20,472 nt of DNA from a virus. How positions within the stretch are numbered: the first letter of the stretch is position 1; every line of letters starts with the position of its first letter. The DNA lies in the IMG/VR virus record IMGVR_UViG_3300025669_000235, positions 1 to 20,472 of that record; one strand, given 5' to 3'. The notes under the pieces were generated by a model, which worked only from the letters and a program-made list of their open reading frames with translations, was not told the DNA's origin and made no database searches. The position numbers were made by a program, and so were the translations under genes. Positions 3,006 through 19,143 of the stretch are shown one piece after another.

Positions 3006-3697
3006 TAGTTTGCGGACTTGACTTATCTATGAATCATTATGCACTTGTTATGAAGCATATCGAGTCAAAGAAAACAAGGGTGATAGTGGCGTGGAATGTA
3101 GCCAGCCGGGTTCATGAATGGCATGATAAAATACCAAGCAATTATCGGTTGCGGTTTGTAGCCAAGACTCCTCCTGAAAAAGAGATGTTTCATTATTATG
3201 TGAATGGTCAATCTATTATAGAAGATATCAGGGATTTTCAGAAAGAGAAGGATTTTGCAGGCCGGGTGTTAGTGGCCTTGGAGGGTTATGCCTATTCATC
3301 GTCACCTGTGGGTTTGGCCCGGATAGTAGAAATGACGGCTTTGGTAAAAGAGGTATTATATTTTAATGGGCATGCTATAAGGCTTCATGATCCATTATCG
3401 GTTAAGATGTGGGCTGGGGATGCTCATGCTGATAAGGATTATATGGTTGATGCTTGTTTGAAAAAATATAAGATACCGGATTGCTTATTACAGACAAAAA
3501 CAAATCCGGGACAAGACGTTGCTGATGCTTACTTCCTTATGAAAATGATGGAGGCCGAATATAGGGTGAGGATGGATCCAATGCGTCAGAAAAAGTATAA
3601 GGATAAACAGCGTCAAGTATTTAATCGAGTGACAAAGGCATATCCAGAGAATTTGCTTTGTAGGCCTTTCCTTGTTTCTATGCAACCGGAGATTTGA
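3002..3697 (+). CDS. RuvC/RNase H-fold Holliday-junction resolvase-like nuclease
   Basis: This 231-aa protein has the layout of a RuvC-type resolvase, a two-metal nuclease that cleaves four-way junctions made during recombination and before packaging. The acidic residues appear at the expected places: Asp7 in VCGLDLS on the first strand, Glu94 in VLVALEGYAY, and Asp172/Asp175 in the C-terminal DVADAYFLM helix (compare RuvC's DxxD). A Lys/His-rich segment HADKDYMVD lies just before. TTG 3002 is the start: GAGGGAGG lies 5-6 nt upstream and TTGA overlaps the previous stop. The downstream gene again overlaps. A transposase or Cas-type RuvC is unlikely given length and neighbours. Confidence 0.72.
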   Translation: MIVCGLDLSMNHYALVMKHIESKKTRVIVAWNVASRVHEWHDKIPSNYRLRFVAKTPPEKEMFHYYVNGQSIIEDIRDFQKEKDFAGRVLVALEGYAYSSSPVGLARIVEMTALVKEVLYFNGHAIRLHDPLSVKMWAGDAHADKDYMVDACLKKYKIPDCLLQTKTNPGQDVADAYFLMKMMEAEYRVRMDPMRQKKYKDKQRQVFNRVTKAYPENLLCRPFLVSMQPEI

Positions 3698-3699
3698 TA

Positions 3700-4608
3700 A
3701 TGGAAATTGGAATTTTAAAGCAACGTCAATCATTACCGCTTGAGGCTAAGATATTGATGTCTGAGAAACGAATAAGAGAATGGTATAATTATTATAATGG
3801 GAATGTATATATATCATTTTCTGGGGGTAAAGATTCGACGGTGTTACTTAACTTGGTTAGAAATATATACCCAGATGTTGTTGCTGTGTTCTGTGATACT
3901 GGGCTTGAATATCCCGAAATACGTGATTTTGTAAAGAGTATAGATAATGTTGTGTGGCTTAAACCAAAAATGAATTTTAAAAAGGTTATTGAAAAATACG
4001 GTTATCCTGTCGTGTCTAAAGAAAATAGCCAAAAAATATACGAGTGGAGGACAACAAAATCAGAGAAGCATAAGTATAAGCTTATGTATGGTAGTGGTAA
4101 TAAATATAAGTCTGGGAGATTGCCTTTTAAATGGAGGTTCCTCATTGACGCACCTTTTAAAATAGGGTATCAATGTTGTAGTGTAATGAAAAAAAATCCG
4201 TTTAAGCAATTTGAGCGCCAGAGTGGGTTAAAAGCCTTTATAGGCACCATGGCATCTGACAGTCATTTGAGGCGACAGCAATACTTGCGTACTGGTTGTA
4301 ATTCTTATACTGGTAGAGAACAAAGCAAGCCTTTGTCTTTTTGGTTGACGAGTGATATATGGGAGTATATAAAAATAAATAAGTTATCTTATTCAAATGT
4401 TTATGATATGGGTTATGTTAATACGGGTTGTATGTTTTGTATGTTTGGGCTTCATTTAGAGGGTGTGAAGAATCGTTTTACTTTAATGAGAAAAACTCAT
4501 CCTAAACAGTATAAGTTTTGCATGGAAACATTGGGGTGTAGAAAAGTAATAGATTATACTTTTCCAAACTTAAAAGAAAATTTATATTTTGATTTTGAGG
4601 GCAATTAA
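3700..4608 (+). CDS. PP-loop, APS/PAPS-reductase/DndC-like enzyme with a [4Fe-4S] cysteine pattern
   Basis: This 302-aa protein is a PP-loop ATP pyrophosphatase-fold enzyme of the sulfonucleotide-reductase/DndC superfamily. The PP motif SGGKDS is at residues 41-46, followed by VFCDTGLEYPE. A Cys-Cys pair (YQCC) and a later CMFC are separated by 83 residues. This CC-X(~80)-CxxC pattern ligates the [4Fe-4S] cluster of APS reductases, and DndC-type enzymes also carry a cluster. The C-terminal ECG(I/L)H motif that carries the catalytic Cys of true reductases is absent. I therefore infer sulfur or other adenylation chemistry on nucleic acid rather than sulfate assimilation. ATG 3700 is favoured (CCGGAG 7 nt upstream) over TTG 3694. 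It sits between nuclease and ATPase genes and abuts the next ATG without a gap. Confidence 0.75.
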   Translation: MEIGILKQRQSLPLEAKILMSEKRIREWYNYYNGNVYISFSGGKDSTVLLNLVRNIYPDVVAVFCDTGLEYPEIRDFVKSIDNVVWLKPKMNFKKVIEKYGYPVVSKENSQKIYEWRTTKSEKHKYKLMYGSGNKYKSGRLPFKWRFLIDAPFKIGYQCCSVMKKNPFKQFERQSGLKAFIGTMASDSHLRRQQYLRTGCNSYTGREQSKPLSFWLTSDIWEYIKINKLSYSNVYDMGYVNTGCMFCMFGLHLEGVKNRFTLMRKTHPKQYKFCMETLGCRKVIDYTFPNLKENLYFDFEGN

Positions 4609-5571
4609 ATGATTAAATTCTTAAAAATAGAGAACTTCCAAAGTCATAAGAATACTTCCCTCAGGTTTGATCCCGGCTTCAATGTGATTGTAGGGAGGAG
4701 CGATGGGGGCAAGTCTGCTATTCTTAGAGCATTGGAATGGGTACGAACCAACAGGCCACCCGGTATTGAGTTTATTCGTAAGGGTGAAACAGATGTAAGG
4801 GTTCAATTGAATATTGGTAATTTTAAAATCATTAGAAAGCGCACGGATAAAAAGACTGGGACATATCAGGTTAAGAATCAAAAGGCATCTGAAATATATT
4901 CCTCATTTGGTTCAGGAGTTCCGGACGATGTTACTAATGCTTTTGGGATGGGTGATATTAATTTTCAATTTCAGTTAGACAAGCATTTCCTTCTCCTCGA
5001 TACTCCGGGAGCGGTGGCTGGAGTATTGAATAACATTACTAAGTTGGGTAATATAACCGAGGCTTTGACTTGGTTGCGTAAGAGTCGAGTAGAGGAAATG
5101 AAGAACCTTGAAGGGATGGTAAAAGAATCTGCTGATTTGGAATATCCTATTAGTGAAGAAGTAGAGAAGATGCTGAATGATGCTACGAGGAAGTCATCCA
5201 AGCTTTTTGTCCTTGAGAATGAAAGGGACTCTATTACAGAACGGTATTCTGATGTCAAGTTTATATTGGCTAAAGTATCCCGGCTCCCGAAGAAAAAGGA
5301 TATTGCTGATTATCCGAATATTATGAGTGATATGTTGGGCTTGGAAGGGAATGTAAAGCGTTTGGCTGATCTTCAATCTAAGCAGGATGAGGTTTTTGCT
5401 ATTTTAAGCAAACTTGATTTACATAAGACAATGAGAATTGAACTCATAGAGGAAAAGAAAGAGATTGAAGTTGAGGGAAAGGCTATATTGAGTAGGTTGA
5501 AGGATTGTCCGTATTGTGGTAGTGTTTTAAATTTGGATACAAAAGGGAGGTTGGTGAAGGATGAAGAGTAA
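4609..5571 (+). CDS. Rad50/SbcC-like ATPase, N-terminal half with zinc-hook CxxC
   Basis: This 320-aa protein has the N-terminal half of an SMC/Rad50-type ATPase. The first strand is FLKIENFQSHKNTSLRFDPG, Walker A is GRSDGGKS (residues 29-36), then comes a Q-loop region and ADLE/K-rich coiled coil from about 140 onward. Near the C-terminus is DCPYCGS (Cys300, Cys303), the zinc-hook motif at the tip of Rad50 coils. The chain stops 17 residues after the hook. It lacks the ABC signature and Walker B, which appear in the separate gene at 7885-8487. With SbcD/Mre11, Rad50 complexes process DNA ends in recombination and genome degradation. ATG 4609 follows the previous TAA directly, with GAGGG upstream. 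This is not a random truncation: no remnant of the missing half follows, and the break is at the natural apex of the coil. Confidence 0.85.
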   Translation: MIKFLKIENFQSHKNTSLRFDPGFNVIVGRSDGGKSAILRALEWVRTNRPPGIEFIRKGETDVRVQLNIGNFKIIRKRTDKKTGTYQVKNQKASEIYSSFGSGVPDDVTNAFGMGDINFQFQLDKHFLLLDTPGAVAGVLNNITKLGNITEALTWLRKSRVEEMKNLEGMVKESADLEYPISEEVEKMLNDATRKSSKLFVLENERDSITERYSDVKFILAKVSRLPKKKDIADYPNIMSDMLGLEGNVKRLADLQSKQDEVFAILSKLDLHKTMRIELIEEKKEIEVEGKAILSRLKDCPYCGSVLNLDTKGRLVKDEE

Positions 5572-5776
5572 TGAGCAACAATGGGTAGAAAGGAGAAGGC
5601 AGGCAATAGCATTAAGCACCGTTTGTGTAGGTACGGCTTTTTTGGTAATGGGAGCGGTTCCATGGTTTACGGGATGGCCTGTATGGTTGAAGCTTTCTTC
5701 TCTCGGAGTTTGGTTTGTGTTTGTAGGGGCTTTGATATATTCTCCATACGCTCCGAAGAAAGGGAGAACACCGTGA
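5561..5776 (+). CDS. small two-span membrane protein, 71 aa
   Basis: This 71-aa protein has two hydrophobic segments (about residues 15-35 and 40-62) separated by a short Trp/Pro-rich turn, WFTGWPVW, so it probably forms an inner-membrane hairpin. ATG 5561 is preceded by GGGAGG and GAAGG and overlaps the Rad50 N-half stop by 11 nt. Its stop overlaps a GTG that starts the next small gene. No family is recognised. Position inside the recombination block suggests a stray accessory gene, with no visible link to DNA repair. Confidence 0.7.
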   Translation: MKSNEQQWVERRRQAIALSTVCVGTAFLVMGAVPWFTGWPVWLKLSSLGVWFVFVGALIYSPYAPKKGRTP

Positions 5777-5937
5777 ATATATTTAAAGCACTATGGATTT
5801 ATTTAATTCCGGGATTTAAATGTAATGCAAATACTTGGGTGGATGTTTGTGTTTCTTTAGAACGATGGCCTTGGTTTCATAATATTTGTAGGTGGGTGCG
5901 TGGGAAACTTGTACAATTGTATAAAAGGAGGCAATAA
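5773..5937 (+). CDS. small Trp-rich basic protein, 54 aa, GTG start
   Basis: A 54-aa frame begins at GTG 5773, overlapping the previous stop (GTGA) with GGGAG 8 nt upstream. It runs to TAA 5935-5937, just before the SbcD start. It is aromatic and basic: IFKALWIYLIPGFKC near the N-terminus, WPWFHNICRWVRGK near the C-terminus, ending KRRQ. This pattern could bind a membrane surface or nucleic acid, but I recognise no family. The same frame is open back to ATG 5581, but that part lies inside the preceding gene and has no ribosome site of its own. The GTG start is therefore the supported one. Confidence 0.55.
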   Translation: MNIFKALWIYLIPGFKCNANTWVDVCVSLERWPWFHNICRWVRGKLVQLYKRRQ

Positions 5938-5938
5938 T

Positions 5939-6859
5939 TTGCGCATCTTACTGCTATCTGATACTCATTATAGATCGACATCCCCGGTAGGGAGGATTGA
6001 TGATTTCAGGAAAGCCCAAAGGAATAAATGGAGACGTGTAAGAAAAGCTGCGGAGGAAAATGCAGTTGATTATGTTCTTCAGGCCGGGGATTTATGGAAT
6101 ATGCCAAACCCTCCTATTGAATTGATAAAGGAATTTCTGGTGGTAGCTAATTTTGGGACTCCTTTATTAACTATTTTAGGTCAGCATGACATGTATATGC
6201 GTTCTCTTTCCCTCGATAATACAGCGAATGGGTTATTACAACACCTCGGTATAGTGAAAATATTGTCGGAAACAGGCTTTTACGAACAAAGCACCTTTAT
6301 AGCTGGAGTATCTTATGGGGGTGACTTAGAAAAGGCCAGAGATGCGCTCAGAGCGTCAAAAGCTTCTTATAAGATTTTGGTGATACATGCGATGATCGGG
6401 GACAAACCATTATACCCCGGTCATGACATAACGAAAGCATCAGGGTTTTTGAAGAAAGTAAAAGAGGCTGATTTGATTCTTACGGGTGATTATCATTATC
6501 CGTATTATCATGAACATGAGGGAAGAGTTATATTGAATACGGGTTGCTTAATGAGGATGACTCGTGATGATAGGGATATGAACAGAAGGCCTCATTATTA
6601 TATTTTGAATACGATTACAAGAAAACTAAAAAAGAAGTTTATTAAAGCGGAAAGTCCAGAGAAGGTATTTGAGCCGAAGACAGAGCAAACATCTCTCCGG
6701 ATAGATACCTTTGAAATGATAGAGCAGTTGAAGAAGTCTCACAAAGTGGGTTTATCTTTTACAGAGAACTTGGAAGCCTATTATGAGAAATTTACGTCAA
6801 CCAAACCAGTAAAGAGTTTGGTGAGAAAAGCTCTTTCTATGGGAGGATATAAACCATAG
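5939..6859 (+). CDS. SbcD/Mre11-like metallophosphoesterase nuclease
   Basis: This 306-aa protein is the nuclease partner of the split Rad50. Calcineurin-type metal ligands appear in order: LLSDTHY (Asp8, His10), QAGDLW, a GQHDMY segment where SbcD/Mre11 normally has GNHD, VIHAMIG, and LTGDYHYP. It starts at TTG 5939, with a near-perfect AAAAGGAGG 7 nt upstream. A longer frame from ATG 5900 lies inside the preceding small gene and has no site. It lies between the two halves of its ATPase partner, so all subunits of the complex are in one transcript. The Asn-to-Gln change in the NHD motif is unusual. The family is clear; 306 aa is shorter than E. coli SbcD (about 400 aa) but normal for phage versions. 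Confidence 0.85.
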   Translation: MRILLLSDTHYRSTSPVGRIDDFRKAQRNKWRRVRKAAEENAVDYVLQAGDLWNMPNPPIELIKEFLVVANFGTPLLTILGQHDMYMRSLSLDNTANGLLQHLGIVKILSETGFYEQSTFIAGVSYGGDLEKARDALRASKASYKILVIHAMIGDKPLYPGHDITKASGFLKKVKEADLILTGDYHYPYYHEHEGRVILNTGCLMRMTRDDRDMNRRPHYYILNTITRKLKKKFIKAESPEKVFEPKTEQTSLRIDTFEMIEQLKKSHKVGLSFTENLEAYYEKFTSTKPVKSLVRKALSMGGYKP

Positions 6860-7606
6860 ATGTATAAATTAATGCTTGGTGATTGTTTAAATCGGATGGA
6901 TGAGATAAAAGATAAGTCTATTGACATGGTTATGGTTGATCCGCCGTATGGAACAACGGCTTGTAAATGGGATTCAATTATTTCTCTTAAACCGATGTGG
7001 GAACAGTTGAAACGAATTATAAAACCGAATGGTGCTATTGCTATGACATCAAGTCAGCCTTATACAAGTAAGTTGGTAATGAGTAATGTAAAAATGTTTA
7101 GGTATGAATGGGTGTGGAATAAGAAACTTGCTGGAAATACTATTTTAGCGAAAAAGCACCCATTAAAAATACATGAAAATATTCTTATTTTTTCGTTTGC
7201 TGGTAATATTTTTTATGCCCCAAAAATGAGACAAGGTAAATTTAGAATGAAAGGTTTTAAATCAGCATTATCAAAAATATACGGGAGTTCTAAAAGTACA
7301 GATACCAGAATATGGAATGACTTATACTACCCACAAAGTATTCTTGAAGTAACAAATGCTAATAATAGAATTGGTAGAGTTCATCCAACTCAAAAACCAG
7401 TAGCATTAATGGAATACTTGATAAAAACTTATACCAATGAAGGGGAGACGGTTCTGGACTTTTGTATGGGTTCTGGAACAACCGGAGTAGCTTGTTTGAA
7501 TTTGGATAGGGACTTCATTGGTATTGAAAAAAATAGAAAGATATATGGAACAGCGGTGAAGAGAATCAAAGAAGCGAAACAACAGAGAAAATCAAGGTTT
7601 TTTTAA
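6860..7606 (+). CDS. beta-class DNA methyltransferase (N6-adenine or N4-cytosine)
   Basis: This 248-aa protein is an amino-DNA methyltransferase. The catalytic motif DPPYGT (Asp27-Pro-Pro-Tyr30) precedes the AdoMet-binding motif LDFCMGSGTTG (around residues 199-209), and HPTQKP lies just before the latter. This order is the beta class, and DPPY is most common in N6-adenine enzymes. No restriction endonuclease is adjacent, so it is probably a solitary phage methyltransferase protecting or marking the genome. ATG 6860 follows the SbcD TAG with no gap; GGGAGG lies 13 nt upstream, rather far. Sampled lines are 25-32% GC against 35-42% in the flanking Rad50/SbcD genes, which suggests a separate insertion between the recombination subunits. 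Confidence 0.88.
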   Translation: MYKLMLGDCLNRMDEIKDKSIDMVMVDPPYGTTACKWDSIISLKPMWEQLKRIIKPNGAIAMTSSQPYTSKLVMSNVKMFRYEWVWNKKLAGNTILAKKHPLKIHENILIFSFAGNIFYAPKMRQGKFRMKGFKSALSKIYGSSKSTDTRIWNDLYYPQSILEVTNANNRIGRVHPTQKPVALMEYLIKTYTNEGETVLDFCMGSGTTGVACLNLDRDFIGIEKNRKIYGTAVKRIKEAKQQRKSRFF

Positions 7607-7615
7607 GGGGGAAAG

Positions 7616-7888
7616 ATGAATGATCTCAAACAAGCCTCGAAAGAATTGAGGGACTTCCAAAACAACCAAGAGCAATTAAAAAGGTTGGGTGTTGAAATAA
7701 ATAGAATCGAGGGGAGGAAGCAAGAACTCAATAAGCAATTAAAGGCCCACGGATTCAAAACGCCCAGAGAGGCATCGGATTGGGAGAAAACAGCCGGGGA
7801 AGAGATTGGGGAATTATCCGGAAAGATAAAGGCTGGGAATAATGATGTTGAGGAACGGATAGAAGAGTTGAAAGGGATACTGGGATGA
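7616..7888 (+). CDS. coiled-coil protein, possible middle piece of the split Rad50
   Basis: This 90-aa, highly charged, helical protein has a heptad-like pattern (LKQASKELRDFQNNQEQLKR, then INRIEGRKQELNKQLKAHG) and a second coil, EEIGELSGKIKAGNNDVEER. It has no cysteine. ATG 7616 has GGGGGAAAG upstream, and its stop overlaps the next gene's start (ATGA). It lies directly before the Rad50 C-half, in the order in which the descending coil of Rad50 would be. It may therefore supply part of that coil as a separate chain, or be an independent partner. This is inference from position and composition; no family is recognised. Confidence 0.72.
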   Translation: MNDLKQASKELRDFQNNQEQLKRLGVEINRIEGRKQELNKQLKAHGFKTPREASDWEKTAGEEIGELSGKIKAGNNDVEERIEELKGILG

Positions 7889-8487
7889 GTAGAGAACAGG
7901 ACATAATGAATCTCCGGGCTTTCTTTGAGGCCAAAGTAGATCGGTATGCCGAGTTGGATGAAGAGATTGAGAACAAAAAGGATTTGATTGCTGATTATGA
8001 GAAGGCTATTGATTGTATCACCACGGTGCTATCAGTAACTCAGGAGGGGATAATTCATTACATAGAGGGGATAATGGAATTGGCTCTCCAATATGTTCAC
8101 GGGGAGCAGTATTCAGCTCGGTTAATATATGAGATGAAAAGGAATCAGCCAGAAGTTAGAATAATGATCCTTAAAGACAGCATAGAAATGTCTCCGAAGT
8201 TCTCCTGTGGCATAGGAGTTGTCGATGTGGCTTCTTTTGCCTTACGGCTGGCGCTATGGTCTATTATCGAGCCTCGTACAGCCCCAGTTATAGTAACAGA
8301 TGAGCCTTTTCGTCATATTTCGGGGGAAGATCAGGTTATCAAGGCCGGGATGATGGTTAAGAAGTTAGCCTCAGAGTTGGGTTTACAAATAATAATAGTG
8401 AGTGGTAAGAAAGGGTTGGTTGAGCATGCTGATAGAGTTTTCGGTGTTAGCATAGAAAAAGGAGTGAGCAGTGTTAAAATACTGTGA
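7885..8487 (+). CDS. Rad50/SbcC-like ATPase, C-terminal half (signature and Walker B)
   Basis: This 200-aa protein has the C-terminal half of a Rad50-like ATPase. After a short N-terminal coil (residues 1-55) come an ABC-signature-like segment CGIGVVDVASFALRLAL (108-124), Walker B APVIVTDEP (133-141) and FRHIS in the D-loop position. No Walker A is present. The signature is degenerate: instead of SGG(E/Q) it reads CGIGVVD, a form I associate with other phage ATPases. The switch region reads IIIVSG where Rad50 usually has a His (ITH). It must pair with the 4609-5571 chain to bind ATP. ATG 7885 overlaps the previous stop by 4 nt. The end overlaps the homing endonuclease start by 17 nt. Confidence 0.82.
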   Translation: MSREQDIMNLRAFFEAKVDRYAELDEEIENKKDLIADYEKAIDCITTVLSVTQEGIIHYIEGIMELALQYVHGEQYSARLIYEMKRNQPEVRIMILKDSIEMSPKFSCGIGVVDVASFALRLALWSIIEPRTAPVIVTDEPFRHISGEDQVIKAGMMVKKLASELGLQIIIVSGKKGLVEHADRVFGVSIEKGVSSVKIL

Positions 8488-9133
8488 GTGTGGTTGCGGG
8501 GAAAAGGTAAGGAGTCGATTTGTGTCTGGTCATAATCAACGAGGAGTATTGCCTTGGAACGCTGGTAAAAAGTTATCTATATCTCATAGGATTAATATTG
8601 GTGAAGGAGGGAAAGGGGTATTTCATAATATATCAGATGTAGGGAGAGCAAAACTCAGGGAATGTGGTCGTAAAACAAGTCAGAGAGTAAGGGTTGAGCT
8701 GTCTCCTTTAAAGGGTAGAAAACTATCAGCAGAGCATAAAAGGAAAGTTAGTGAAGGAGTAAGAAAAGCTTATTTGGAAGGGAAGTATAAACCAAAAACT
8801 AATAATTCTAAATGGTACAGTAATACTTCTATTGAAAAAATTATGGAAAATGAGTTAAAAATAATTGGTTTAAATTATAAGAAACAACATCATATTATTG
8901 GTATTGGTTATGTTGATTTCTTTCTTCCTGATTTTAATATTATAATCGAATGTGATGGGGATTATTGGCACAATTTACCCGGTGCCCAAGAGAAAGATGT
9001 TAATAGGGATTTTGGATCCACCTTTTTACATAAGTATAAAACTATTCGATTTTGGGAGCATGAAATTAACGATGATACGGAAGGATGTATAAAGCGATTG
9101 AGGGAAGAAATAAAGATGCTTGATAGTCAATAA
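8471..9133 (+). CDS. free-standing homing-type endonuclease: Cys cluster + NUMOD3 repeats + Vsr/DUF559-like nuclease
   Basis: This 220-aa protein has a typical homing-endonuclease layout. The N-terminal Cys cluster CECGCGEKV (residues 5-13) is followed by RFVSGHNQRG. Two NUMOD3-type DNA-binding motifs follow, KLSISHRINIGEG (34-46) and KLSAEHKRKVSEGVRKAY (84-101). The C-terminal nuclease is of the Vsr/DUF559 fold: IGYVDFFLPDFNIIIECDGDYWH, with Asp149, Glu160 and Asp162 as likely metal ligands. It starts at GTG 8471 with AAAGGAGTG upstream. It overlaps the Rad50 C-half by 17 nt, and its TAA lies inside promoter repeat copy 1. The sequence is AT-rich. Such genes usually spread by cutting cognate alleles nearby; no intron is visible around it. 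Confidence 0.82.
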   Translation: MLKYCECGCGEKVRSRFVSGHNQRGVLPWNAGKKLSISHRINIGEGGKGVFHNISDVGRAKLRECGRKTSQRVRVELSPLKGRKLSAEHKRKVSEGVRKAYLEGKYKPKTNNSKWYSNTSIEKIMENELKIIGLNYKKQHHIIGIGYVDFFLPDFNIIIECDGDYWHNLPGAQEKDVNRDFGSTFLHKYKTIRFWEHEINDDTEGCIKRLREEIKMLDSQ

Positions 9134-15493: not shown

Positions 15494-16843
15494 ATGATTG
15501 ACTTGATTAAGAGGATAGGGGATGCTCAGGGAATCAGTGTCCCATCTTCCCCGGCTCCTAATTACTTTGGGGGAAGTGGTAGCACTGATCTAAAAAAGAG
15601 TGCTACATGGGACGTATGGAGCGGTATGGTTAATCAACTAAGTAAAGCTGATCAACCTGATAACCTAAAAGCCTTTGTTGAGACATATGCCGTATTGCCG
15701 TGGATGTATATAGGTGTATGGATCATTTCCTCCTCTATTGCTGCCAGGCCTCTTCAGATCTTCGAGGGCTTTGGGGATGATGCTGAACTCGTGGACAATG
15801 GGGATGATTATGATCTATTGAATGAGCCTAATGAAAATGAGGACGGCAATCAGATGATCGAGTCCATCGCTGCTTATCTTGAATTATCCGGTAATGCATT
15901 CTTGGAAGAGGTTGCTATCATTAATGGCCTTCCAGTTAAGCTTTATGGATTGGAACCTTATTATATGAATATTGTTCCTGACCCCAAGATTAAAATAAAA
16001 GGATACTATTGGGAGAATCAAGGAACTAAGATTGAATACGAACCGGAGAACATAACTCATTTTACATATAACAACCCTCTCAATCAGTTCTGGGGTATGG
16101 GTGTAGTTAAGCCCCTACAGACTACATTGATCACGGAGCTTTACCGAGAGATGTACAATAAAGGCTATTTTCAGAATGAGGCGAGGCCTGATGTAGTGCT
16201 CAAGCAAACTCCTGATCCAGCGAAGGGTGTCATGCCCCTCATTCCTGCTGCTCGTGAAGAACTGGCTCTCAAATGGACCAATGCTTTTGGAGGCTCCCGG
16301 AATGCTCGGAAGCCAGTGGTGTTGCCCCCAAACTTTGATATAGAGTTATTGACCGAAGCAATCCAAGACATGGCCTTCCGAGAGATGGAAAAGAGTTTAC
16401 GTGAAAGGGTATTGGGATGCTTAGGAGTGCCCCCGGCCTTAGTAGGTTTATTTGAGTTTGCTAACTATGCTAATAGCCGTGAACAGATAAAGATATTTCA
16501 TACAGTAACATTACCTCCCAAAGAAGATCGAATAGCCAAGACAATCACTCGGAGGATTCTCAGACCGTATAAAGCTGATCATTGGTGTAAGTTTGATACG
16601 TCTGATATCCCGGCTTTACGTGAAGATGGGAAAGATCAGACAGAGAGACTGTCTCAAGAATACGATAGGGGAATTATAACACTTGGTGAATTTAGAGAGC
16701 AGAGAGGATACGGGAGGACAGACGATGATGTTGTTAATGATACCCGTGTAATGATTCAGAGTCTTGTACCATTTGATGAAGCAGGTGCTTTACCCGAAGA
16801 GGGTGGAGGATTTGAGGAGCCTGAGGAGGATGTCGTTGAGTGA
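15494..16843 (+). CDS. portal protein (HK97-type)
   Basis: This 449-aa protein is the dodecameric ring at the capsid vertex through which DNA enters and leaves. The HK97-type signature pattern is visible: WMYIGVWIISSSIAARPLQI (about residues 73-92), LLNEPNENEDG, then YLELSGNAFLEEV, GLPVKLYGLEPYYMNIVPD, EPENITHFTYNNPLNQFWGMGVV, and FQNEARPDVVLKQTPD. The length is typical. ATG 15494 has ACGGAGG upstream. The acidic C-terminal tail (LPEEGGGFEEPEEDVVE) overlaps the next gene's start. Synteny with the terminase and MuF genes agrees. Confidence 0.9.
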   Translation: MIDLIKRIGDAQGISVPSSPAPNYFGGSGSTDLKKSATWDVWSGMVNQLSKADQPDNLKAFVETYAVLPWMYIGVWIISSSIAARPLQIFEGFGDDAELVDNGDDYDLLNEPNENEDGNQMIESIAAYLELSGNAFLEEVAIINGLPVKLYGLEPYYMNIVPDPKIKIKGYYWENQGTKIEYEPENITHFTYNNPLNQFWGMGVVKPLQTTLITELYREMYNKGYFQNEARPDVVLKQTPDPAKGVMPLIPAAREELALKWTNAFGGSRNARKPVVLPPNFDIELLTEAIQDMAFREMEKSLRERVLGCLGVPPALVGLFEFANYANSREQIKIFHTVTLPPKEDRIAKTITRRILRPYKADHWCKFDTSDIPALREDGKDQTERLSQEYDRGIITLGEFREQRGYGRTDDDVVNDTRVMIQSLVPFDEAGALPEEGGGFEEPEEDVVE

Positions 16844-17396
16844 GTGCCTTAAATGCGGACTATGTTGTAAGGATATATTTATTGGTGACGGGTTATTCGA
16901 TAGTGATAATCCGGTAGATAAGGATTGCGCTTTATTTATAACGAAGCATTGGGAAGTAATTAAGACTTATCCAGATGGGAGCTATTACAAATGTACGTTA
17001 TTAAACGAGGAGACAAATCAATGTACAGACTATGACCATAGGCCTTATACCTGTAGTGGCTTTCCTCTATATGGTAGGGATAAAGTCAGTGAGGCCGAAT
17101 TGAAGAAGTATCCATTATGTGGTTTAATGAAACGAGGGGAGAAAGAAATGGGCAATACAGTAAAGATCAGGCAAGGTTATATGGATGGCGAGGACTTTCT
17201 GGAGATCAATGGAGTAAAAGTCCTGACTCAAGGATATACAATTCAGGTGGAGCCGGGTGATGTTCCAATGTTAACAATGACGATACCCATCGAAATAAAT
17301 GCCGAGCTTTTAACCGCCATTGACGCCAATATCATTTCGTTAACACCCAAAGGGGAAGAAACAAAGAAAGAGTTTGAGGAGGTGGACGACACTTGA
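16830..17396 (+). CDS. YkgJ-like CxxCxxCC protein fused to a small phage domain
   Basis: This 188-aa frame begins at ATG 16830 (or TTG 16836, which has GAGGAGG at a better spacing) and overlaps the portal end. The first ~100 residues match the YkgJ-type putative zinc/iron-chelating family: CLKCGLCC (Cys6, 9, 12, 13), then YKCTLLNEETNQC (Cys55, Cys65) and DHRPYTCSGFPLY (Cys75). The remaining ~80 residues, from Met107, look like another domain of strands: FLEINGVKVLTQGYTIQVEP and LTMTIPIEIN. ATG 17148 at that junction has its own ribosome site (GAGGGGAG, 6 nt spacer), so a short second product from the same frame is likely. The metal-binding role in the head cluster is unknown. Confidence 0.7.
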   Translation: MSLSECLKCGLCCKDIFIGDGLFDSDNPVDKDCALFITKHWEVIKTYPDGSYYKCTLLNEETNQCTDYDHRPYTCSGFPLYGRDKVSEAELKKYPLCGLMKRGEKEMGNTVKIRQGYMDGEDFLEINGVKVLTQGYTIQVEPGDVPMLTMTIPIEINAELLTAIDANIISLTPKGEETKKEFEEVDDT

Positions 17397-17715: not shown

Positions 17716-17754
17716 TAAATTGATTAGAACGTGGCGAGAACAAGAGGAGTAACA

Positions 17755-19143
17755 ATGGCGAAGGCAACTCAGAGAGACTATAATATATATGCGAGGCAAA
17801 AAAGCTCCTCGGATAAGATAATGTATCATGCTTGGTTGAAAGCTATAACTAAGGTGAATGCAGCCTTTGTTGCCAAAGCCAAAGCCGGGAAAGGTAAAGC
17901 TGCCCCTCTCTCTGAGAAACAAATAGCAAAGATTATAATACCAACGGTCAGACCTGCTTATGGGAAGGTTGCTGGTAACGGATTCGAGGCCGGGATTGAT
18001 AACGTTCAAACAAGATACGGAAGACCATTGCCGTCCGTTGACGTAGGGTTGGGAAAGGGGTTGTTGTTCACCTCGGCTCAGGTGGTCATGGACTTAAGCA
18101 AGGCTTCACAAAGCACGCTTGAAAATCTCGGCCTCGGTTCCGTTCAACAAGAGCTATCACAATCAGGTATGAGTAAGGTAACGGACGTTGCCGCTACACA
18201 GCGAAGTAAAATGCAGCGAGTGATGGAGAAGTCTATTGATGCTAATGAAAGCTCAGATGAATTAGCAGAGCGGTTAAAGAAGTATACAGACGGTAATCAA
18301 GCCAGAGCAAGGGCAATAGCGCAGACAGAAACAACGAAAGTATTCAATGCTGGGACGTTAGCTGGGTATGAGAAATCGAGAGTCACTGAAGGGAAAGAGT
18401 GGGTGACTAATATCACTGGTAATCCTCGACACCCTCCGGAAAGTAAGTTCAATCATTTGGGTGCTCATGGCGAGGTTGTTCCTGTGGACAAGCCTTTTAT
18501 GAGGACGGGGGAAAGCTTGATGCATCCCGGTGATCCATCTGGTTCTGCGGGTAATGTTATTTATTGTTATTGTGGTATGATGCCTAAGATCGGAAGGCCC
18601 AAACCAAGAACAGCTACACCAGAAAATTTAAGTACACCTAAAGATATTCTTGAGACTCGTATGGGACAGGCTTTTGATAAGATAGATCCAAAAGCAATTA
18701 CATCGGTCAGTCAAGTAAAAAATGAAATCAAAGTGAAAGTGACTTCCGGTAAAAAGGAATTGCTTCATTCAACTATAAGGTTAAACAATCCTGAGAAAAG
18801 TATTTTTGTAAGCACAGTAGAGGTTGCTGATGAATTGCAATCGAAGGGAATTGGAACCAAATTTATTAGTACTGTAAATGAGATGGGTGTTAAGAAAAAA
18901 TATGCTACAATTGATTTGATAGCTGAAAATGATGGCATTTGGTTTTGGGGTAAAAAGGGATTCACTATTACAGAGAACAGAAAACTAATATTGGGAGATT
19001 TAAAAAAGATAGGAAATGATGTTGGAGTGAAATTTGTTGATGAAAGAGACATTCATAAATTATGGAAATATAGAGATGATTATCCAGATTTATTTCCGGG
19101 TCAATTAGTCATGGTCAAGCCTTTGAAGTATAGCAAAAAATAG
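17755..19143 (+). CDS. MuF-type head morphogenesis protein with GNAT-like C-terminal domain
   Basis: This 462-aa protein has two parts. Residues 1-~285 are a phage minor head/MuF (SPP1 gp7-like) protein: QARARAIAQTETTKVFNAG (182-200), HPPESKFNHLGAHGEVVPVD (226-245) and the closing MHPGDPSGSAGNVIYCYC (256-273). Residues ~300-462 are unlike MuF and resemble a GNAT acyltransferase: TVEVADELQSKGIGTKFIS (354-372) has the (Q/R)xxGxG/A acyl-CoA loop, and ENDGIWFWGKKGFTI (391-405) matches the GNAT 'hGhYxKxGF' end. MuF proteins are carried in virions, and some carry toxin or effector domains at this end. The start is ATG 17755 (AGAGGAG 6 nt upstream), not GTG 17731. The C-terminal part is on AT-richer DNA (33-37% in sampled lines versus 45-52%). 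The GNAT call is from motifs, not a search. Confidence 0.82.
   Translation: MAKATQRDYNIYARQKSSSDKIMYHAWLKAITKVNAAFVAKAKAGKGKAAPLSEKQIAKIIIPTVRPAYGKVAGNGFEAGIDNVQTRYGRPLPSVDVGLGKGLLFTSAQVVMDLSKASQSTLENLGLGSVQQELSQSGMSKVTDVAATQRSKMQRVMEKSIDANESSDELAERLKKYTDGNQARARAIAQTETTKVFNAGTLAGYEKSRVTEGKEWVTNITGNPRHPPESKFNHLGAHGEVVPVDKPFMRTGESLMHPGDPSGSAGNVIYCYCGMMPKIGRPKPRTATPENLSTPKDILETRMGQAFDKIDPKAITSVSQVKNEIKVKVTSGKKELLHSTIRLNNPEKSIFVSTVEVADELQSKGIGTKFISTVNEMGVKKKYATIDLIAENDGIWFWGKKGFTITENRKLILGDLKKIGNDVGVKFVDERDIHKLWKYRDDYPDLFPGQLVMVKPLKYSKK

Follow-up and report, generated by a model that had tools for sequence, protein, structure and literature searches.

A naturally split Rad50/SbcC conserved in phages, plasmids and bacterial chromosomes

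Positions 4609–8487 of a 20.5-kb phage fragment (IMG/VR record IMGVR_UViG_3300025669_000235, positions 1 to 20,472, hereafter the window) very probably encode a naturally split Rad50/SbcC, in which two separate chains, N and C, would form the ABC head and, together with SbcD, an Mre11-Rad50-like nuclease of phage recombination. The split is conserved, each half has a Rad50 fold, and N and C occur in exactly the same bacterial genomes. There are two breaks, at the zinc hook and inside the second coil, and therefore Rad50 is represented here by three chains. The N chain would comprise lobe I and the first arm and carry the zinc-hook cysteines close to its C terminus; the C chain would comprise the final segment of the second coil, followed by lobe II with the signature and Walker B; a third, small coiled-coil protein is encoded 5' of the C chain. 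We propose that N and C would associate non-covalently into an ABC ATPase head, that two heads and SbcD would make up an ATP-gated nuclease of the Mre11-Rad50 type, and that the phage would use this complex beside a UvsX/RecA-like recombinase in processing DNA ends during recombination.

Two halves of Rad50 on separate chains

A sequence-only reading of the window had placed Walker A and the CxxC hook on one gene, the signature and Walker B on another, and SbcD, two small proteins and a DNA methyltransferase in the gap between them. All of these were found, with an open reading frame (ORF) at every coordinate it gave. The members of the predicted complex and their motifs are:

4609–5571, + strand: N chain, 320 amino acids (aa), with lobe I of Rad50 followed by the first arm up to the hook (AAA_23, 8.3e-16)
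4693–4716, + strand: Walker A, GRSDGGKS, N chain residues 29–36 (G, GK and [ST] columns invariant in 55/55 N chains)
5506–5517, + strand: CPYC hook motif, N chain residues 300–303 (both Cys invariant in 55 aligned N chains)
5939–6859, + strand: SbcD/Mre11-like nuclease (PHROG SbcD-like, 2e-16)
7616–7888, + strand: coil chain, 90 aa, coiled coil (homologues in related loci, family alignment)
7885–8487, + strand: C chain, 200 aa, with lobe II of Rad50 preceded by the terminal stretch of the second coil (by profile and fold)
8203–8226, + strand: signature region SCGIGVVD, degenerate from SGGGxVD (G109 in 57/58, G111 in 58/58 and D114 in 57/58 C chains)
8287–8304, + strand: Walker B, VIVTDE (VIVTDEP), with D139 and E140 invariant in 58/58 C chains

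The window N chain matches a PHROG SbcC-like family (1e-11), and a profile built from 55 N chains identified Rad50 as its best match (3aux, 2e-15), above SMC proteins and other ABC ATPases. Its AlphaFold2 (AF2) model (predicted local distance difference test, pLDDT, 86) retrieved 9a9j_A, 3av0 and 1ii8_A as the top Foldseek hits. The chain has no signature and no Walker B. Its zinc hook, recognised as a CxxC sequence motif at the coil apex, is followed by 17 residues before the C-terminal end, exactly as the sequence-only reading had it; the break at the hook thus stands, and the second break, inside the second coil, is one that this reading had not spelled out. The C chain, which lacks Walker A, is the complement: a profile of 58 sequences gave 3qkr_B (1.5e-15) and 1ii8_B as top matches, again with Rad50 above SMC proteins and other ABC ATPases, and the AF2 model of the window chain (pLDDT 95.5) retrieved 1f2t_B, 1ii8_B and 9a9j_B. 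The two models therefore match chains A and B of identical Pyrococcus furiosus Rad50 structures (1ii8 and 9a9j; also 1f2t), and on the single engineered Rad50 chain 3aux the N profile covers residues 5–221 and the C profile residues 172–369, collinearly. By sequence and predicted fold, N and C are thus identified as halves of Rad50. An SMC or RecN identity was considered and rejected, as Rad50 outscores SMC for both profiles.

Conservation of the split, SbcD and the coil chain

Scans of IMG/VR with the N and C alignments picked out 99 and 374 contigs as candidates, and 80 + 80 of these were analysed; a search with the lone C chain sequence had found no match in this database, whereas the alignment-based scans did find relatives. 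ORF-by-ORF profile searches, after removal of duplicates, yielded a first set of 136 distinct loci, both halves being present in 107. All 107 also carry SbcD and a coil gene, with all four genes on one strand, and in 103 of them the order is N-SbcD-coil-C. The same arrangement of three pieces is thus seen in over 100 distinct loci and is not due to chance. The related loci are only about 20–35% identical to the window, and the family extends over phages, plasmids and bacterial chromosomes. Its members include gp32, gp34 and gp35 of Bacillus phage vB_BboS-125, a locus on B. velezensis plasmid p3 (L262) with genes annotated as an AAA family ATPase, a 77-aa protein, "ParA" and a metallophosphoesterase, and genes 155 (N) and 2 (C) of Microbacterium phage Magritte, which are separated by ~39 kb spanning the genome ends. 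The median length is 353 aa for N and 205 aa for C. The CxxC motif is present in 116/119 distinct complete N chains, at a median of 6 residues from the stop, and 2–28 residues follow CPxC. No single-chain Rad50 was found among the distinct N + C pairs of the first set (0 of 107), the second scan (0 of 35) or the Clostridia-like genomes (0 of 15), so that the check for an intact Rad50 in close relatives, proposed together with the initial reading, came out in favour of the split. Since single-chain relatives are absent and CxxC lies near the N chain end across loci, the break at the hook is a constant trait of this family, and the split is old and conserved. The evolutionary distances of the four components (N, SbcD, coil and C) also covary (r 0.59–0.86; 0/1000 permutations). 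The sole ORF matched by both the N and C profiles (in L175) turned out to be RecN-like and was dropped.

SbcD is predicted to be a part of the split complex, because it is present in every N + C locus of the first set (107/107) and because one locus (L217:2534-4843) encodes an SbcD–N chain fusion of 769 aa, followed by coil and C as separate genes. The window SbcD contains a Metallophos domain (Pfam, 4e-9), and residues D8, H10, D51, H83, H150 and H186 are kept in 8/8 sequences. Its TTG start codon at 5939 lies behind a strong Shine-Dalgarno sequence, AAAGGAGG, and is a better candidate than the upstream GTG at 5900.

The coil homologues of the 107 loci are 75–123 aa long (median 82), and their genes are always located 3' of N and 5' of C, directly before C in about half of the loci; in the window the C chain start overlaps the coil stop codon as ATGA. 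We propose that the coil chain forms part of the second Rad50 arm. An alternative, compatible with the split of N and C and to which we give a minor but real share of credence, is that this protein is a separate regulator or a partner of SbcD rather than a piece of Rad50. Its similarity to Rad50 is weak (best SbcC match E 0.21) and its length does not follow that of the arm, as this alternative would have it; against it, the protein is found in every one of the 107 loci and always between N and C, and its gene adjoins N even in those chromosomes (see below) where C sits elsewhere. An hhalign comparison of the coil chain with the N arm gave a probability of 21%.

Walker A and the hook are separated by discrete distances of about 265, 313, 362, 427 and 473 residues, and independent profiles of five N chain length groups all show a self-shift peak at 47 residues; in each of the four groups tested with heptad-preserving shuffles, the observed value was reached in no more than 1 of 200. 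The N arm thus consists of tandem 47-residue helical repeats in variable copy number. The lengths of N and of coil + C do not covary (r 0.11). The idea that one coil chain pairs along the whole N arm is therefore unsupported: as coil and C are constant in length, one coil chain cannot span the arm in its long versions. A more speculative arrangement, which we consider rather doubtful, is that the second arm has been replaced by a free coil subunit, several copies of which would line the N arm, one per 47-residue repeat. If so, the number of repeats in the N gene would set the length of the arm while the coil and C genes stay constant, making a modular Rad50 of tunable reach, and a separate coil gene would permit more than one copy per complex.

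Halves at separate loci in bacterial chromosomes

Among 291 genomes from the class of Peptoniphilus lacrimalis (G001; Clostridia-like), 21 encode a C chain, and the N chain was detected in these 21 and in no others. Most of the split-bearing genomes have a compact SbcD-N-coil-C operon; in five of the 21, C is encoded at a locus separate from SbcD-N-coil. There, C lies between folD-like and rny-like genes and SbcD-N-coil between phosphoglycerate-mutase-like and rimO-like genes (names assigned by reading of the sequences). In one of them (G229) the two loci are on the same contig, at 1.62 and 2.73 Mb. The identity of the two genome sets, even with the genes ~1.1 Mb apart, strongly implies that the two chains function in trans without depending on a common operon, in line with the earlier suggestion that a functional ATPase requires assembly of both chains in trans. 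The companion suggestion, that one operon could set the ratio of the chains, does not hold in general, since at such a distance a common operon cannot balance them. Canonical SbcC (PF13558) is rarer in the split-bearing genomes (2/21) than in the others (129/270; Fisher p 0.0005, uncorrected for relatedness), and the split form may therefore serve as the principal SbcC in a bacterial lineage. At L199:6244-6924 and in L200, L201, L205 and L208, the gene for the C half is flanked by folD-like and RNase Y-like genes, and the N half is encoded far from it.

Genes more than 1 Mb apart could also be taken to mean that N and C are unrelated in function, with N as an ATPase of RecF-like or coiled-coil type that is sufficient by itself and C as an independent regulator. 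We regard this as improbable, because N without signature and Walker B and C without Walker A are each incomplete, and because the two match halves of one protein and share identical genome sets. Still less credible is a gene recently broken by an insertion or frameshift (a methyltransferase, a homing endonuclease or an assembly error), with the pieces as remnants. The methyltransferase in the gap of the window and the AP2-domain gene in that of vB_BboS-125 would fit such an event, but both breakpoints are the same in more than 100 loci of such low identity, the window pieces each have their own start codon and mostly a good Shine-Dalgarno sequence, the catalytic residues are invariant and the C chain is modelled with a pLDDT of 95.5; conservation over phages, plasmids and chromosomes refutes recent breakage. 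A single chain produced from the pieces by bypass, trans-splicing or a split intein deserves hardly any weight either: the ends do come together precisely at the hook and within the coil, but the short tail behind CPxC leaves no room for an intein domain and bypass cannot link genes ~1.1 Mb apart.

Some observations count against a split Rad50 as described here. Joint inheritance in phages would also give the covariation of trees and the shared gene order, and the missing length covariation noted above speaks against one coil chain simply pairing with the entire N arm. The window C chain itself is without the usual signature Ser and H-loop His: its signature reads SCGIG, compared to [AS]SGGG in the family, with the Ser replaced by Cys here and in 3/58 aligned chains, and its H-loop reads VSG, compared to VTH in most relatives. 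The window copy is therefore somewhat divergent and may be a weak ATPase.

Relation to known systems and neighbouring genes

To our knowledge, Rad50 is normally one chain, and split forms are known only from laboratory constructs. The proteins described here resemble Rad50/SbcC-Mre11/SbcD systems such as T4 gp46/gp47, E. coli SbcCD and P. furiosus Rad50 in Walker A, the CxxC hook, the signature and Walker B, in the folds of lobes I and II and in the linked SbcD. They differ from them in the three encoded chains, with N ending at the hook and a separate coil protein, in the 47-aa repeats of the N arm, and in a signature with GGG instead of the LSGGE type. A single polypeptide with both lobes and the coil, as is usual in Rad50/SbcC, is not encountered in this family, which we take as an architectural variant of Rad50 because each half is assigned to Rad50 by its sequence and its fold. 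The separate lobes of archaeal Rad50 assemble into an ATPase, as is known from experimental structures (1ii8, 9a9j, 1f2t), and crystal structures of the P. furiosus catalytic domain as two chains (1f2t, 1ii8, 3qkr), which together make up the ATPase head, rank among the best hits for the two halves from the window. The P. furiosus protein is, however, a laboratory construct with most of the coil and the hook removed, whereas the split described here is natural and includes both.

Fusion proteins of Mre11 and Rad50 have been reported, including one from Bacillus phage 0305phi8-36, in which one SbcC P-loop NTPase segment was not observed (Yoshida et al. 2011, PMC3175470); the genome of this phage has 218,948 bp (PMC5348500). 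As in L217, SbcD is joined there to the N half of Rad50, but L217 (which we take to be 0305phi8-36) also shows separate coil and C genes, and its separate C gene likely accounts for the missing segment. PHROG 16465 and PHROG 15167, which match proteins of the vB_BboS-125 gp32 and gp35 type, are the same families as N and C; they are annotated as exonuclease and ATPase and have not been recognised as two halves of one enzyme. We found no description of a natural split of Rad50/SbcC in the open-access literature of PubMed Central (PMC), and a phage annotation paper does not mention SbcC. The split would explain genes annotated as "exonuclease", "ATPase" or "chromosome partitioning", as well as a fusion reported without half of its NTPase, and it offers a ready system in which to ask if a covalent coil link is needed for signalling between hook and head.

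Two further genes of the window lie within the module:

5561–5776, + strand: hydrophobic protein of 71 aa, whose gene overlaps the end of that for the N chain (good Shine-Dalgarno)
6860–7606, + strand: DNA methyltransferase (N6_N4_Mtase, Pfam, 5.9e-33)

The methyltransferase, initially read as an insertion, is local cargo outside the Rad50 complex, because a relative in L006 lies between coil and C instead and most related loci have none; a DNA-level search with the window gave matches to the methyltransferase only, among the matches listed. The 71-aa protein, with no PHROG family, no Pfam match above the curated cut-off and no relative in the first ten related loci, is local cargo as well. 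Across loci, extra genes occur between any two members of the module and comprise DNA methyltransferases, an AP2-domain gene, nicotinate phosphoribosyltransferase, a PRPP-synthase-like protein, sugar epimerases and an RNA-repair polymerase-like protein; a low-complexity, alanine-rich repeat protein is encoded between SbcD and the coil gene at L007:10725-11546.

The genes 5' of the module encode a UvsX/RecA-like recombinase, a TET-associated glycosyltransferase (1436–2305, E 1e-40), which suggests that the phage DNA may be hypermodified, and a PAPS-reductase-like protein (3694–4608) encoded near the latter. Directly 3' of the C chain is a Vsr/DUF559-like endonuclease (8471–9133), whose N-terminal part is weakly similar to homing endonucleases, and terminase, portal, Mu F-like and protease genes are found further 3' of the module. 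The end of the portal gene is overlapped by a gene for a protein with a CxxCxxCC zinc/iron-chelating domain (16764–17396), and the Mu F-like head protein (17731–19143) has a possible C-terminal acetyltransferase (GNAT) domain, detected with a weak score (E 0.0017).
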